From assembly GCA_950097245.1 (NCBI GenBank), contig CATNCS010000004.1, forward strand, positions 1 through 64,000: a DNA stretch of 64,000 bases, written 5' to 3'. Shown in pieces: positions 4,311 to 51,145 of this stretch. A program made the position numbers and the translations under genes. Under the pieces are notes generated by a model. That model was not told the origin of the DNA. It did not search any database and saw only the letters and a list, made by a program, of their open reading frames with translations. Numbering within the stretch: position 1 is the stretch's first letter; every line of letters starts with the position of its first letter. Origin of the DNA: an uncultured Oscillospiraceae bacterium. GTDB lineage: Bacteria; Bacillota; Clostridia; Oscillospirales; Oscillospiraceae.

Positions 4311-4388
4311 GTAGGGGCGGATATTATCCGCCCGCTGCTCCAGAAGTTCCGGCTTTTCCAGAAGCGGGCGGCTGATAGCCGCCCCTAC
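4311..4388. repeat. Family A palindromic repeat
   Basis: Begins GTAGGGGCGG, ends CCGCCCCTAC, and carries inner stems GGCGGATATTATCCGCC and GGCGGCTGATAGCCGCC. An outer inverted pair, GGGAGTGTCC at 4268 and GGACACTCCC at 4405, encloses the unit. Confidence 0.85.
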
Positions 4389-10964: not shown

Positions 10965-11035
10965 GTAGGGGCGGATATTATCCGCCCGCCCGAACTCCGG
11001 CGCATCACCGGCGGGCGCATGATATGCGCCCCTAC
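10965..11035. repeat. Family A palindromic repeat
   Basis: GTAGGGGCGGATATTATCCG on the left and GCATGATATGCGCCCCTAC on the right, each with its own inner palindrome. It lies between the binding-protein and ATPase genes of one transporter. Confidence 0.85.
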
Positions 11036-15524: not shown

Positions 15525-16421
15525 ATGGCAAAACGAAAGACAGAACTGGGCCTGGGCCGGGGGCTGAACGCCCTGCTGGGCGACCCGGGCCTCCCGGAGC
15601 AGAACGAGGGCTCCATCTCCCTGCCCATCTCTCAGGTGGAGCCCGGCCTGAACCAGCCCCGGAAGCGCTTTGACCAGGGGGCGCTGGACGACCTGGCGGA
15701 GTCCATCCGGGTCCACGGCATCATCCAGCCCCTGACGGTGCGCCGCCTGGCCACCGGCTACTACCAGATCATCGCCGGGGAGCGGCGGTGGCGGGCGGCC
15801 AAGGCCGCCGGCCTGGAGGAGGTGCCCGCCGTCATCATCGAGGCGGACGACCGCAAGGTGATGGAGCTGGGCCTCATTGAAAACCTCCAGCGGGAGGACC
15901 TGAACCCCGCCGAGGAGGCCCGGGGCTACCGGACCCTCATGGAGGAGTACGGCCTCACCCAGGAGCAGGTGGCCCAGCAGATGGGCAAGAGCCGCCCCGC
16001 CATCACCAACACCCTGCGCCTGCTGGCCCTGCCCGACCAGGTGATGAAGCTGGTGGAGGAGGGCTCCCTCTCCGCCGGCCACGCCCGGGCCATTCTGGGC
16101 GCTCCCACCGCCGCCCTCCAGACCGAGGCCGCCAAAAAGGTGGTGGAGGGACAGCTGTCCGTCCGCCAGACTGAGGCCCTGATTAAGGCCCTGCAAAAGG
16201 AGAAGAAGGAAAAACCCAAGGAGGCGGCCCCCGACCTCTCCCTCTACCTGGGTGAGCTGGAAAAGGACCTGTCCGGCCGCCTGGGCCGCAAGGTAAAGAT
16301 CGCCCACAAGGGCAAAAAGGGCAGAATCGAGCTGGAGTACTACAACGAGCAGGATCTGGAAACCCTCTTAGGGCTCCTCCAGCGGCTGAAGGACGAAGGT
16401 GGTGACTCCTATGGCTTCTGA
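15525..16421 (+). CDS. parB: Chromosome partitioning protein ParB (Spo0J)
   Basis: A CTP-dependent DNA clamp that loads at parS and spreads, and recruits SMC in other Firmicutes. The 298-aa protein has a basic N-terminal tail that contacts ParA (MAKRKTELGLGRGLNALLGD), the GERRWRAAKAAG box, ENLQREDLNPAEEA, and the helix-turn-helix LTQEQVAQQMGKSRPAITNTLRLLALP. The C-terminal dimerisation domain ends in YYNEQDLETLLGLLQRL. ATG at 15525 follows GAGG. Its stop overlaps the next gene. Confidence 0.96.
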   Translation: MAKRKTELGLGRGLNALLGDPGLPEQNEGSISLPISQVEPGLNQPRKRFDQGALDDLAESIRVHGIIQPLTVRRLATGYYQIIAGERRWRAAKAAGLEEVPAVIIEADDRKVMELGLIENLQREDLNPAEEARGYRTLMEEYGLTQEQVAQQMGKSRPAITNTLRLLALPDQVMKLVEEGSLSAGHARAILGAPTAALQTEAAKKVVEGQLSVRQTEALIKALQKEKKEKPKEAAPDLSLYLGELEKDLSGRLGRKVKIAHKGKKGRIELEYYNEQDLETLLGLLQRLKDEGGDSYGF

Positions 16422-17031
16422 CCGGCGCAGGGCGCCCAGCGAACCCTTCATTGAGGACGCCCACCGCTTTCCCGACGACGGCCAGAAAAAGCGCCGTCCC
16501 CCCTCCCCCGACTCCGACGCCCGCCGCCGCAAGACCCAGCAGCGCCGCCGGCGAAACTCCGTCTTCCAGTATATCGCCATTCTGTTTATGACCGCCTTTG
16601 TCCTGCTGCTGTTCACCTTTATGATGGAGAAGCGGCAGAGCCAGCAGCAGATCGACGATCTGAAGCAGTCCAACTCCGCCGCCCAGACCCTCCAGGGGCT
16701 GCTGGACGAAAACGCGGCGCTGATGGAGCAGATTGCCCAGGTGGAAAAGCAGGCCAGGGACCTGGCCGACCAGCTGGCCGCCGCCAGAGCAGAGACCTCC
16801 TCCGCCCAGCAGCAGACCCAGGCGGAGGAAAAGGCCGTCCAGGCCATGCACTGGTTCTGGCAGATCAACGAGGCCTCCGTCCGGGGCAAGACCAAGCTGT
16901 GCCGGGAGCTTATCACCTCTCTGGAGGAGGCCAAGCTCCAGGACTACCTGCCCAAGGAGAACATCACCGGCACCGACCGCTTCTCCCCCTACGACCGGTA
17001 TATGGAAATCCGGGGGAAGGTTATAAAGTAG
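16411..17031 (+). CDS. Single-pass membrane coiled-coil protein (FtsL/DivIC-like topology)
   Basis: I do not recognise a family. The protein is 206 aa from ATG at 16411, which overlaps the parB stop; a GTG 12 bases upstream is possible. It has a cytoplasmic Arg/Pro-rich tail (about 1-50), one membrane segment (FQYIAILFMTAFVLLLFTFMM, about 53-73), then a long Gln/Ala-rich coiled coil and a small C-terminal part. The topology resembles FtsL, DivIC or septum proteins. Coupling to parB suggests a role in nucleoid or division organisation, which is inference. The stop TAG is provided by the repeat that follows. Confidence 0.75.
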   Translation: MASDRRRAPSEPFIEDAHRFPDDGQKKRRPPSPDSDARRRKTQQRRRRNSVFQYIAILFMTAFVLLLFTFMMEKRQSQQQIDDLKQSNSAAQTLQGLLDENAALMEQIAQVEKQARDLADQLAAARAETSSAQQQTQAEEKAVQAMHWFWQINEASVRGKTKLCRELITSLEEAKLQDYLPKENITGTDRFSPYDRYMEIRGKVIK

Positions 17032-22212: not shown

Positions 22213-22276
22213 GTAGGGGCGGATATCATCCGCCCACCATTCGCGGCATAAACGGGCGCATAATATGCGCCCCTAC
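22213..22276. repeat. Family A palindromic repeat
   Basis: Starts GTAGGGGCGGATATCATCCG and ends GCATAATATGCGCCCCTAC, in the leader of hisS. No T-box motif is seen. Confidence 0.85.
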
Positions 22277-26100: not shown

Positions 26101-26148
26101 GCAGGGGCGGCTATCAGCCGCCCGCGGGCGCATATTATGCGCCCCTAC
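26101..26148. repeat. Family A palindromic repeat, compact
   Basis: A 48-bp unit: GGGGCGGCTATCAGCCGCCC followed by GGGCGCATATTATGCGCCCC and TAC. It follows aspS. Confidence 0.85.
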
Positions 26149-30746: not shown

Positions 30747-30813
30747 GTAGGGGCGCATATCATGCGGCCGCTGTATGCCGGCTCTCCTGCGGGCGGATGA
30801 TATCCGCCCCTAC
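30747..30813. repeat. Family A palindromic repeat supplying a stop codon
   Basis: GTAGGGGCGCATATCATGCG on the left, GCGGATGATATCCGCCCCTAC on the right (one arm shown is 20 bases or fewer; the right arm spans 30793-30813). On the minus strand, its terminal GTAG gives the TAG stop (30810-30812) of the decarboxylase gene. Confidence 0.85.
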
Positions 30814-32155: not shown

Positions 32156-32235
32156 GTAGGGGGCGGTCTCTGCGCCGCCCCGCTATAAACGGTTTGCCGC
32201 CGAAGGCCGGGGCGGTACAGAGGCCGCCCCCTGCA
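32156..32235. repeat. Family A palindromic repeat, GGCGG-TCTCTG variant
   Basis: GTAGGGGGCGGTCTCTGCGC on the left and GCGGTACAGAGGCCGCCCCC on the right. It separates jag from the decarboxylase gene. Confidence 0.8.
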
Positions 32236-35961: not shown

Positions 35962-37275
35962 ATGAATCCCGCCGCGGAAGTCTGGGAAAAGGTGAAAGCC
36001 CTCATGGGGGCGGAGATGACCTCCACCACCCTGAACACCTGGTTCGACGACACAGAGGCCCTGGCCCTGGAGGAGGACCGCCTCGTTTTATACAGCCCCA
36101 CCCGGTTTAAGCGGGACATTATCGCCTCCCGCTACCTCTCCCCCATCCAGGGCGCCCTCCATGAGCTGTTCTCCGCCGACCTTCAGGTGACGGTGCTCAC
36201 CGAGGGTGAGCGCGGCAGCCTGGAGAAGCCGAAGACCGGCGTCTTCCTCCCCGGCACCGAGGAGTACACCTTCGACCGGTTTGTGGTGGGCTCCTCCAAC
36301 AAGTTTGCCCACGCCGCCGCCCGGAAGGCGGCGGAAAATCCCGGGCTGAGCTACAACCCCCTGTTTATCTACGGGGAGTCCGGCCTGGGCAAGACCCACC
36401 TGCTCTACTCCATCGCCCACACCATCCACGGCGACCATCCGGACTACAGGATTATCTATGTCAAGGGGGACGCCTTCACCAACGAGCTCATCGCCGCCAT
36501 CCGGGAGGGCCGGACCCAGGAGTTCCGGGACAAGTACCGCAGGGCCGACGTGTTCCTGATGGACGACGTGCAGTTTATCGCCGGCCGGGACTCCACCCAG
36601 GAGGAGATGTTCCACACCTTCAACACCCTCTACGAGCTGAAAAAACAGATCGTCTTCACCTCCGACCGCCCCCCCAAGGAGATGCTCCGGCTGGAGGACC
36701 GGCTGAAGACCCGCTTTGAGTGGGGCCTGCTGGCCGACATCATCCCCCCCGACTACGAGACCCGCACCGCCATTATCAAAAGCAAGGCCATCCGCATGGG
36801 GATGGAGCTGCCCGACTACATCATCCAGCTCATCGCCGAGACCATCACCGCCAACGTGCGGCAGATTGAGGGCACCGTCAACAAGATCATGGCCTTTCAG
36901 GACCTGAACGGGGACAAGGTGGATAAAAACACCGTGATTCGGGCGGTAAAGGATATTTTCAAGGAGAAATCCGACATCCTGCCCACCGCCGACGTCATCA
37001 TTCAGGAGGTCTGCAATTTCTACAACCTGGAGCCCTCCCTCCTCCGGGGACAGGGCCGCTCCAAGGACATCTCCCTGGCCCGGCAGATCGCCATGTACCA
37101 GATCCGCCGGATGACCAACCTGTCCCTGAAGGAGATCGGCGCGGAGTTCGGCGGCCGGGACCACAGCACCGTCCTCAACGCCCTCAACCGGGTGGAGGAC
37201 CTGGTGAAAACCGACCCGGAGAAGGCGGAGATTATCAAGGACATCACCACCAATATCAATTCCAGGTACGAGTAG
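35962..37275 (+). CDS. dnaA: Chromosomal replication initiator DnaA
   Basis: Binds DnaA boxes and opens the origin. The 437-aa protein has domain I (about 1-80), a short domain II linker, the AAA+ core with GESGLGKTHLLYSIAHT (about 136-152) and VFLMDDVQFI, and the DNA-binding domain IV with the signature LKEIGAEFGGRDHSTVLNAL. AAAGGAGG precedes ATG at 35962. The stop TAG is the second to fourth base of a family A repeat (GTAGGGGGCGG). Confidence 0.98.
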   Translation: MNPAAEVWEKVKALMGAEMTSTTLNTWFDDTEALALEEDRLVLYSPTRFKRDIIASRYLSPIQGALHELFSADLQVTVLTEGERGSLEKPKTGVFLPGTEEYTFDRFVVGSSNKFAHAAARKAAENPGLSYNPLFIYGESGLGKTHLLYSIAHTIHGDHPDYRIIYVKGDAFTNELIAAIREGRTQEFRDKYRRADVFLMDDVQFIAGRDSTQEEMFHTFNTLYELKKQIVFTSDRPPKEMLRLEDRLKTRFEWGLLADIIPPDYETRTAIIKSKAIRMGMELPDYIIQLIAETITANVRQIEGTVNKIMAFQDLNGDKVDKNTVIRAVKDIFKEKSDILPTADVIIQEVCNFYNLEPSLLRGQGRSKDISLARQIAMYQIRRMTNLSLKEIGAEFGGRDHSTVLNALNRVEDLVKTDPEKAEIIKDITTNINSRYE

Positions 37276-37347
37276 GGGGCGGCCTCCGCGCCGCCCCACA
37301 TATCCCACGCCACATTCAAACGGGGCGGCACAGAGGCCGCCCCCTAC
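37272..37347. repeat. Family A palindromic repeat supplying the dnaA stop codon
   Basis: GTAGGGGGCGGCCTCCGCGC on the left, GGCACAGAGGCCGCCCCCTAC (37327-37347, last 20 bases quoted in part) on the right. TAG at 37273-37275 is the dnaA stop. The unit lies inside the dnaA-dnaN origin gap. Confidence 0.85.
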
Positions 37348-40848: not shown

Positions 40849-41259
40849 ATGGAATCCATCGAATATCTGTGGAAGGACCGCAAGCGTTACCTGGGACTGC
40901 CCCTGTCCTTCACCCGGTACCGCCTCAGTGAGGACCGGCTGTTCTGTGAGACCGGGTTTTTCAACATCAAATCCGACGAGGTGCTGCTCTACCGGGTGCG
41001 GGACCTGCAGCTGAATATGTCCCTGGGACAGCGCATCTTTGGGGTGGGGACGGTGTGCGTGATTTCCTCCGACAAGAGCGTGCCCCATCTTGATCTGAAA
41101 AATGTAAAGAATCCCCGCCGGGTCAAGGAGTTGATCCACCAGCATGTGGAGGAGGCCAAGGACAAGCGCCGGATGCGGACCACCGAGCTGGTGGGCGGCG
41201 AAGGCGGCGGAGAGGATTTCCACGACAGCGCTGATCTGGACGACGAGGAACTGGATTAA
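40849..41259 (+). CDS. Bacterial PH-domain (YdbS-like) protein
   Basis: A cytosolic 136-aa protein. The central part (YRLSEDRLFCETGFFNIKSDEVLLYRVRDLQLNMSLGQRIFGVGTVCVIS...LDLKNVKNPRRVKELI) follows the bPH_2/DUF304 pattern. Such domains are usually attached to membrane helices, which are missing here. The last 40 residues are Lys/Arg-rich then acidic. Role unknown. AAGGAGG precedes ATG. It lies alone between repeats upstream of gyrB. Confidence 0.75.
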   Translation: MESIEYLWKDRKRYLGLPLSFTRYRLSEDRLFCETGFFNIKSDEVLLYRVRDLQLNMSLGQRIFGVGTVCVISSDKSVPHLDLKNVKNPRRVKELIHQHVEEAKDKRRMRTTELVGGEGGGEDFHDSADLDDEELD

Positions 41260-41262
41260 TAG

Positions 41263-41417
41263 GTAGGGGCGGATATCATCCGCCCGCCGGTAAATCGCAA
41301 ATGTGTAGGGGCCGACGACCTCGGCGGCCCGCTTTTGCGGCTCTGTTTTCATTTTAAATGGCGCGCCGGGTCGTCGCGCCCTACGCCCCAATTCGGGCGG
41401 ATAATATCCGCCCCTAC
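41263..41417. repeat. Nested family A repeats (one inside another)
   Basis: The outer unit starts GTAGGGGCGGATATCATCCG (41263) and ends GGATAATATCCGCCCCTAC (41417). Inside lies a second unit, 41305-41384, which starts GTAGGGGCCGACGACCTCGG and ends GCCGGGTCGTCGCGCCCTAC. The nested order suggests that one element inserted into another. Confidence 0.85.
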
Positions 41418-41444: not shown

Positions 41445-43391
41445 ATGTCTGAAGAACTGAACCAGCTGAACACCACCCAGACCGACCACGAGTACGGCGG
41501 GTCGGAGATTCAGGTCCTGGAGGGCCTGGAGGCGGTGCGCAAGCGCCCGGGCATGTATATCGGCTCCACGTCCGAGTCCGGCCTGCACCACCTGGTGTAT
41601 GAGATTGTGGACAACTCCATCGACGAGGCCCTGGCCGGCCACTGCACCGACATCACCGTGACCATCAACCCCGGCAACACCATCACCGTCACCGACAACG
41701 GCCGCGGCATCCCGGTGGACATCCAGCCCCAGACGGGCAAGCCCGCCCTGGAGGTGGTGTTTACCATCCTCCACGCCGGCGGCAAGTTCGGCGGCGGCGG
41801 GTACAAAGTATCCGGCGGGCTCCACGGCGTGGGCGCGTCAGTGGTCAACGCTTTGAGCGAGTGGCTGGAGGTCCAGGTCCACAAAAACGGCGAGATCTAC
41901 GAGATGAAATTCTCCCGGGGCAAGATCACCCAGGAGATGAAGGTGGTGGGCCGGACCGACCACACGGGGACCACCGTCACCTTCAAGCCCGACCCGGAGA
42001 TGTTCGACACCCTGGAGTACAGCTACGACACCCTCCACACCCGGATGCGGGAGGAGGCCTTCCTCAACGCCGGCCTGCGCATCCAGACGGTGGACCTGCG
42101 CCCCGGCCGGGAGCAGGAGGACGACATGTGCTATGAGGGGGGCATCCGGGAGTTCGTCTCCTTCATCAACCGGAACAAGGACCCCCTCCACAACGACGTG
42201 ATCTACATGTCCGGCGCCCGGGAGGACTCCATGGCCGAGGTGGCCATGCAGTACAATGACGGCTATCAGGAGGTTATGGTCTCCTTCGCCAACAACGTCC
42301 ACACCGCCGAGGGGGGAATGCACGAGGAGGGCTTCCGCCGGGCGCTGACCAACGTGCTCAACGCCTACGGCAGGAAAATCAAGCTGCTCAAGGACGACGA
42401 GAAGGTGTCCGGCGACGACTGCCGGGAGGGCCTCACGGTGGTCATCTCAGTGAAGCTCACCGAGGCCCAGTTCGAGGGACAGACCAAGGCCAAGCTGGGC
42501 AACAGCGAGATGCGCACCCTGGTGAACAACATTGTCAGCGAAAAGCTGGAGATTTTCCTGGAGGAGAACCCTGCCGTGGGCCGGGCCATTCTGGACAAGG
42601 CCCTCATGGCCAACCGGGCCCGGGAGGCCGCCCGGAAGGCCCGGGAGTCGGTGCGCCGGAAGACCGCCCTGGGGGGCGCGGCCATGCCCGATAAGCTCCG
42701 GGACTGCAACGAGGCAAATCCGGAGCTCACCGAGCTCTATATCGTCGAGGGCGACTCCGCCGGCGGCTCGGCCACCCAGGGCCGGGACAGCCGGTTTCAG
42801 GCCATCCTCCCCCTGTGGGGCAAGATGCTCAACGTGGAGAAGGCCAGGGCGGACAAGGTCTACGGCAACGACAAGCTCACCCCCGTCATCACCGCTCTGG
42901 GAGCGGGCATCGGGGACGACTTTGACCTGAACAGGCTGCGCTACCACAAGGTCATCATTATGGCCGATGCCGACGTGGACGGCGCTCACATCCGCACCCT
43001 GCTGCTCACCTTCTTCTTCCGCTTTATGCGGCCCCTCATCGAACAGGGCTACGTCTACTCCGCCGTACCCCCCCTGTTCAAGCTGACCAGGGGCAAGCAG
43101 ACCCGGCTGGCCTTCTCTGAGGAGGAGCGGGACGCCATCTCCGCCGAGCTGCGGGGAGACAACCCCAACGCCAAGGTGGATATCTCCCGCTTTAAGGGCC
43201 TGGGCGAGATGAACCCCCACGAGCTTTGGGAGACCACCATGGACCCGGAGAAACGCACCCTGCGCCGCATCGAGCTGGACGACGCCGTCCGGGCCGACGA
43301 GACCTTCACCATCCTCATGGGTGAGAAGGTGGAGCCCCGGAAGGAGTTCATCGAGCGCAACGCGAAATATGCCGTCAACCTGGACTATTAA
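41445..43391 (+). CDS. gyrB: DNA gyrase subunit B
   Basis: The ATPase subunit of gyrase, which introduces negative supercoils. The 648-aa protein has the GHKL ATP site ([39 protein letters not shown]) and the TOPRIM domain ([26 protein letters not shown]). At the position of E. coli Lys447 it has Trp ([14 protein letters not shown]); this may be a lineage trait. GGAGG precedes ATG at 41445. A repeat separates it from gyrA. Confidence 0.97.
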
Positions 43392-48567: not shown

Positions 48568-48615
48568 GTAGGGGCGGCCTTTGGCCGCCCGCGGGCGCGC
48601 ACAGCGCGCCCCTAC
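48568..48615. repeat. Family A palindromic repeat, compact
   Basis: GTAGGGGCGGCCTTTGGCCG, then GGGCGCGCACAGCGCGCCCC and TAC. It has the same 48-bp plan as the 26101 copy and lies just before the VWA gene. Confidence 0.85.
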
Positions 48616-50911: not shown

Positions 50912-50919
50912 AAGCAATC

Positions 50920-51145
50920 ACAAAGCATTGACAGGGAACAGTACCCCGCAGCGGGGCATCAGAGAGAGGGCGGCCGGTGAGAGCCCTCCGAAGCTGTGAC
51001 GGGAAGGCCCCCTGGAGCGCGGGGAGGAAATGCCCCGCCGGTCCCCGCCGTTACCGGGTCAGAGTGCGTATCAGCCAGATACGAATTCAGGTGGAACCAC
51101 GGACATTTTTGTTCGCCCTGAGCCGAGAGGCTCAGGGCGTTTTTT
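50920..51145 (+). promoter_or_regulatory. T-box riboswitch (glycine)
   Basis: A leader RNA that senses uncharged tRNA. The T-box sequence AGGTGGAACCACGG is at 51089-51102. Its TGGA would pair with a tRNA ending UCCA, which fits tRNA-Gly. Upstream, AGAGAGAGGGCGGCCGGTGA (50961-50980) followed by GAGCCC looks like the apical part of stem I. A terminator with arms CGCCCTGAGCC and GGCTCAGGGCG plus six T follows (51114-51145). The specifier codon could be the GGG/GGA near 51001, but I could not fold it. glyS lies downstream. Confidence 0.88.
51114..51145 (+). terminator. T-box controlled terminator
   Basis: An 11-bp stem CGCCCTGAGCC/GGCTCAGGGCG with loop GAGA and TTTTTT. It should form when tRNA-Gly is charged. 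Confidence 0.85.

Follow-up and report, generated by a model that had tools for sequence, protein, structure and literature searches.

A probable insertion of one REPIN into another of a different family upstream of gyrB in an Oscillospiraceae genome

Introduction

Repetitive extragenic palindromic sequences (REPs) are built of GTAG followed by a hairpin (PMC3733652, PMC6006769). In Pseudomonas fluorescens SBW25, two inverted REPs and the spacer between them are dispersed as a single unit (REP doublet forming a hairpin, REPIN), with several flavours per genome and an association with REP-associated tyrosine transposases (RAYTs) (Bertels and Rainey 2011, PMC3116915). Here we describe a palindromic unit nested inside another in a 64,000-nucleotide stretch of DNA (the window; contig CATNCS010000004.1, positions 1 to 64,000, assembly GCA_950097245.1) from an uncultured Oscillospiraceae bacterium, and we consider it probable that a REPIN of one family inserted into a REPIN of another in an ancestor shared with a sister species, that the whole unit was inverted later, and that both families were spread by RAYTs.

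All of the SBW25 features given above recur in this system. With the GTAG palindromic repeats, grouped into 24 families (Di Nocera et al. 2013, PMC3733652), it shares in general features a GTAG tail and short stem, dimers with GTAG on the outside and spacers of 20–100 bp, as well as insertion into other repeats and REPs inside genes. With subclass 2.4 of the TnpAREP proteins (Quentin et al. 2018, PMC6006769), it shares an HUH/Y1 protein, in-frame GTAG REPs inside the tnpAREP gene, and long canonical REPs, in which G-C pairs form the base of the stem, together with a double-foot form. Finally, it shares with the Escherichia coli TnpAREP and bacterial interspersed mosaic element (BIME) system (PDB 4er8) a homologous HUH transposase and a substrate of GTAG plus hairpin.

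Results

Two complete REPINs of different families are nested

The original prediction placed one palindromic unit within another at this locus, and its positions and ends proved exact when re-checked: the outer unit (41263–41417, 155 bp) encloses an inner unit (41305–41384, 80 bp) that ends in GTAGGGGCC and GCGCCCTAC. The parts of the locus, in the host genome (G000) and with reference to its sister species (G050), are as follows.

41263–41286, plus strand: upstream arm of the outer unit, REP type A (GTAG and hairpin GGGCGGATATCATCCGCCC), from arm pairing and fold; the identical 24-mer occurs 39 times in the genome
41287–41304, unstranded: left part of the outer-unit spacer, split off by the inner unit, from sequence; a matching piece adjoins the GTAGGGGCCG arm in G050
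41305–41384, unstranded: inner unit, REPIN type B, 80 bp, as is typical of B units
41305–41330, plus strand: left REP arm of the inner unit (GTAGGGGCCGACGACCTCGGCGGCCC), DNA hairpin of -10.2 kcal/mol
41359–41384, minus strand: right REP arm of the inner unit (GTAGGGCGCGACGACCCGGCGCGCCA on the minus strand), DNA hairpin of -11.1 kcal/mol; this flavour also lies within the RAYT gene of G007
41385–41393, unstranded: right part of the outer-unit spacer, from sequence; without the inner unit the outer unit is 75 bp
41394–41417, minus strand: downstream arm of the outer unit, REP type A, from arm pairing and fold

The outer arms, of 24 nt each, are 96% complementary. Folded as a DNA strand, the 155 nt reach -52.7 kcal/mol compared to -31.1 ± 3.1 kcal/mol for shuffled sequences (z -6.9), and the nested structure is therefore well above chance. 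Folded singly, each of the four arms forms a hairpin (z -2.9 to -4.4) with GTAG, or a variant of it, at the 5' foot; thus, two inverted REPs with a short spacer between them, the anatomy of a REPIN, are present. Within the window, GTAGGGGC occurs 16 times (3.4 expected). We conclude that the nesting is genuine and that its best interpretation is the insertion of one REPIN into another.

The original prediction implied a single family for both units, and in this it was mistaken: the outer pair belongs to family A (GTAGGGGCG, a loop and CGCCC) and the inner pair to family B (GTAGGGGCCG.. / GTAGGGCGCG..), while a third family, C (GTAGGGGGCGG..), is also present in the window. Genome-wide, A-type arms number 232, compared to 3 matches for a reversed control pattern. 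To describe unit lengths, we sampled roughly 0.4 Mb from each of the genomes G000 and G050 (0.8 Mb together), in which A units measure 48 bp (n = 11), 64–78 bp (n = 37) or 96 bp (n = 1), whereas most B units have a length of 80 bp. Subtracting the inner from the outer unit (155 - 80) leaves 75 bp, which falls within the 64–78 bp mode of family A. Because the outer remainder and the inner unit both have standard lengths, the structure is what a whole B unit would give on entering the spacer of a whole A unit.

The nest is shared with the sister species in inverted orientation

Pattern searches of 64 genomes of the genus recovered the complete A(B)A nest in G000 and G050 alone; these searches used exact patterns, which degenerate nests would escape, and one possible degenerate nest was seen in G005 (L131). 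The gyrB tree pairs the window with G050 (locus L022; support 92/73). Compared to the window, the G050 nested unit matches at 141 of 155 positions when flipped and at 65 of 155 when not. The genes on either side are collinear, and each half of the spacer keeps the same inner arm. As independent nestings would not reproduce this flipped arrangement, the simplest history would be a single nesting before the host and G050 split, followed by inversion of the whole unit.

The locus lies within the dnaA–dnaN–gyrB–gyrA region, between two genes.

40849–41259, plus strand: upstream flanking gene, bacterial PH domain protein (Pfam bPH_2, E 5.7e-14)
41445–43391, plus strand: downstream flanking gene, gyrB (Pfam DNA_gyraseB, E 6.3e-59)

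Relatives retrieved with the PH protein belong to Lawsonibacter, Pseudoflavonifractor, Flintibacter, Oscillibacter and allied Oscillospiraceae. The original prediction had proposed aligning the locus with close strains to find an empty or single-element site, and among the relatives compared both exist: the junction between the PH gene and gyrB is empty in L011 and holds single A-type units of 72–80 bp in six loci (L012, L017, L020, L021, L023 and L025). Units of another flavour (GTAGGGACGC...) occupy it in L010 and L014; contig coordinates show that the latter lies in genome G016, whose RAYT gene carries the GTAGGGACGC flavour too. With empty, single, other-flavour and inverted states at one site, the proposal that insertion of a mobile element explains the nesting is supported, and the opposite outcome, an identical nest in every relative with no copy varying between presence and absence, is not what we observe: the states of the site vary, and the copies in the window differ between the sister species.

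In four further relatives (L024, L026, L030 and L042), the junction holds no REP unit but a small gene, the start of which is lipoprotein-like.

The same structure could instead be a mosaic, in which half-units of type A were joined around a B unit as neighbouring REPs underwent deletion, duplication or gene conversion. Mosaics of half an A unit with B do exist elsewhere (G005, G007, G063, G003 and G075), and G007 has, at two unrelated places (L225 and L232), a 73-bp chimera in which a spacer joins an A arm to a B arm, with 93% identity between the copies, as if mosaics spread too; the differing flavours at the gyrB junction in relatives also suggest replacement in place. However, chance assembly would not be expected to yield a 75-bp remainder and an 80-bp inner unit that are both of standard length, and the outer arms pair over 24 nt. 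We consider a mosaic origin improbable.

RAYT genes of the genus carry REPs of matching flavour

The original prediction suggested that the family may be a non-autonomous element moved by a transposase, for example one of the TnpA-REP/RAYT type, and proposed a search for Y1 (HUH) or other transposases flanked by the same arms. A Y1_Tnp protein is present in the host (contig C19), and a profile built from eleven Y1_Tnp-type proteins found RAYT homologues in 37 of the 64 genomes, including a few weak IS200-like matches. All eleven aligned proteins match NCBIfam NF047646 (REP-associated tyrosine transposase) at E < 0.001 (best 9.8e-22; the host protein scores 61.8 against a curated cut-off of 80), the best solved relative of the profile is E. 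coli TnpAREP (4er8, E 2.4e-13), and H121 and H123 of the HUH motif and the single tyrosine Y185 are invariant in the eleven sequences. Some relatives also have full-length IS200-like Y1 transposases, which form a separate group and were not considered further.

The arms lie inside the RAYT genes. In 29 of 38 distinct RAYT-like genes, two inverted REP arms occur within the unbroken reading frame, one about 105–170 bp before the HUH codons and one 60–75 bp after them, and the two arms of a gene are 93% identical compared to 60% when arms are shuffled among genes, a contrast inflated by the relatedness of the genes. Exact A arms occur in the RAYT gene of G008, with near-identical arms in G040, G063 and G075, and B arms occur in the RAYT genes of G007 and G019, so that at the level of the genus each family has a RAYT carrying the same REP flavour. 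The intact RAYT of the host carries C arms; its second RAYT (L097, about 16206–16707; G000 contig C9) is frameshifted, has an A-like flavour and adjoins a uvrB-like reading frame, and the RAYT of G050 (L210) is intact with the same GTAGGGGCGCACATTGTGCGCCC internal arms as this frameshifted copy. The proposed class of enzyme thus exists in the host and in the genus, where it carries REP arms of matching flavours, although its role as mover is one that we infer from association.

At RAYT loci L009, L117, L118, L121, L122 and L179–L217, the peptides encoded by the arms (for example VGGGLRAAP and TGRHGGRPLP) vary with flavour.

Across genomes, arm copy numbers appear to track RAYT flavour in part. 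Genomes that encode a C-type RAYT contain more C arms than the others (Mann-Whitney p ~1e-4), and A arms show a weaker association with A-type RAYTs (p 0.004), both values ignoring phylogeny. Within the genus, B arms are most numerous in G007 (158), whose RAYT gene carries B arms. Against such tracking, B arms are also many in G005 and G040, in which no B-type RAYT was detected, as are A arms in G000 and G007, in which no exact A-type RAYT was found.

Other units in the window and alternative kinds of element

Further units of the window, taken from the unit listing, the comparison with G050, or both, are as follows.

4311–4388, unstranded: type A unit (unit listing)
10965–11035, unstranded: type A unit (unit listing)
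22213–22276, unstranded: type A unit in both host and G050, the latter with extra B-type sequence alongside (G050 comparison)
26101–26148, unstranded: type A unit, short form of 48 bp (unit listing)
30747–30813, unstranded: type A unit, absent from G050 (unit listing and G050 comparison)
32156–32234, unstranded: type C unit, absent from G050, with a close-fitting empty site (G050 comparison)
37272–37347, unstranded: type C unit in the dnaA–dnaN gap, beginning where dnaA ends and adjoining a stretch before dnaN rich in TGTGGAnA-like motifs (unit listing)
48568–48615, unstranded: type A unit, short form of 48 bp (unit listing)

Whole units are missing in G050, as expected if the REP pair is the mobile unit; this is a species-level comparison, and some sites also differ in their flanks. 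In general features (small size, ends in inverted orientation, many copies, and presence or absence), the units would also fit classical miniature inverted-repeat transposable elements (MITEs), which have terminal inverted repeats and depend on a DDE transposase for their movement. We regard this as very unlikely, as no target-site duplication was seen at the units examined, every arm is itself GTAG plus a hairpin, which MITE ends do not require, and the same arms are carried by RAYT genes of the genus.

An Rfam scan found no family at gathering score at the nested locus, where sub-threshold matches are due to chance; the only match elsewhere in the window is a T-box leader (50919–51123, RF00230, E 2.3e-21). 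A selected regulatory RNA or terminator rather than mobile DNA would suit the position between co-directional genes, the strong predicted hairpin (computed for the DNA strand) and the ability of REPs to act on mRNA (reviewed in PMC3733652), but is very improbable, as close relatives lack the unit or have something else in its place, the sister has it in the opposite orientation, and no Rfam family was recognized.

Discussion

We favor the insertion of a family B REPIN into a family A REPIN. In the proposed sequence of events, an 80-bp B REPIN would have entered the spacer (about 27 nt between 24-nt arms) of a 75-bp A REPIN located between gyrB and the PH-domain gene, in an ancestor shared by the host species and G050. 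The resulting 155-bp unit would then have been inverted in one of the two lineages, most simply through recombination between the inverted outer arms. Both REPINs would be non-autonomous and probably spread as single strands by RAYTs, HUH enzymes with a single tyrosine. By analogy with the biochemistry of TnpAREP (PMC8266576), each RAYT would recognize GTAG and the cognate hairpin of a single-stranded REP, cut and rejoin it; a REPIN would then be excised, or a copy of it made, in single-stranded form, and its joining at a new place would leave no target duplication.

Several observations weigh against this account. The uninterrupted outer-unit spacer was not found in the genus genomes and the state before insertion was therefore not seen directly, so that the insertion is something we infer, if strongly (a match in G005, with 3 mismatches, lies in unrelated DNA and was rejected as chance). 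G000 and G050 are both draft assemblies, and the difference in orientation could be an artefact of assembly. No target-site duplication was seen at the units of the window or in the empty-site comparisons, a result that also speaks against a DDE-type MITE. Spacers of the single units at the gyrB junction bear a weak likeness to the outer spacer of the window, with best ranks of about 5–6 among 74 background spacers (gene orientation); this is not significant given the number of comparisons, and common descent of the unit at the junction is thus not established. Finally, the host assembly, which is 95.6% complete, yielded no RAYT with exactly A or B arms.

We also put forward, tentatively and as less likely than not, that in this clade a RAYT gene holds its cognate REP pair within its coding sequence, on both sides of the HUH motif, such that REP flavour and RAYT specificity change together and REPs are swapped in place at fixed spots (RAYT genes and intergenic places such as the gyrB site); the flip of the nest might then also have come from an exchange of this kind, driven by a RAYT, between its inverted GTAG arms. 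As a lead, the RAYT genes with their two internal REPs are of more interest than the nest itself, and their matching in-gene REPs make the pairing of RAYT with REP flavour a testable question.

Nesting is expected behaviour for such elements, and what the locus adds is the record of a REPIN/RAYT system from gut Oscillospiraceae in which a nesting event can be given a position on the tree and is accompanied by an inversion in place. The frequent placement of one arm to either side of the HUH motif, and inversion in place, were not found in the published REP/RAYT descriptions that we compared (main articles, excluding supplementary figures). Compared to the REPINs of SBW25 (PMC3116915), the host here is a member of the Bacillota, the nest is orthologous in the sister and inverted there, and REPs lie within RAYT genes rather than just beside them. 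The main text on the GTAG families (PMC3733652) makes no mention of Clostridia-type hosts. In E. coli, the REPs are longer and bulged, the transposase is distant in sequence, and no in-gene REPs are described in the literature compared. Subclass 2.4 (PMC6006769) differs in that the HUH motif of most genes here is flanked by a REP on either side; our likening to it is by features rather than by placement in the subclass tree. As REPIN-in-REPIN insertions and REPs inside RAYT genes have both been published, we conclude that the nest is a further example of a known phenomenon.
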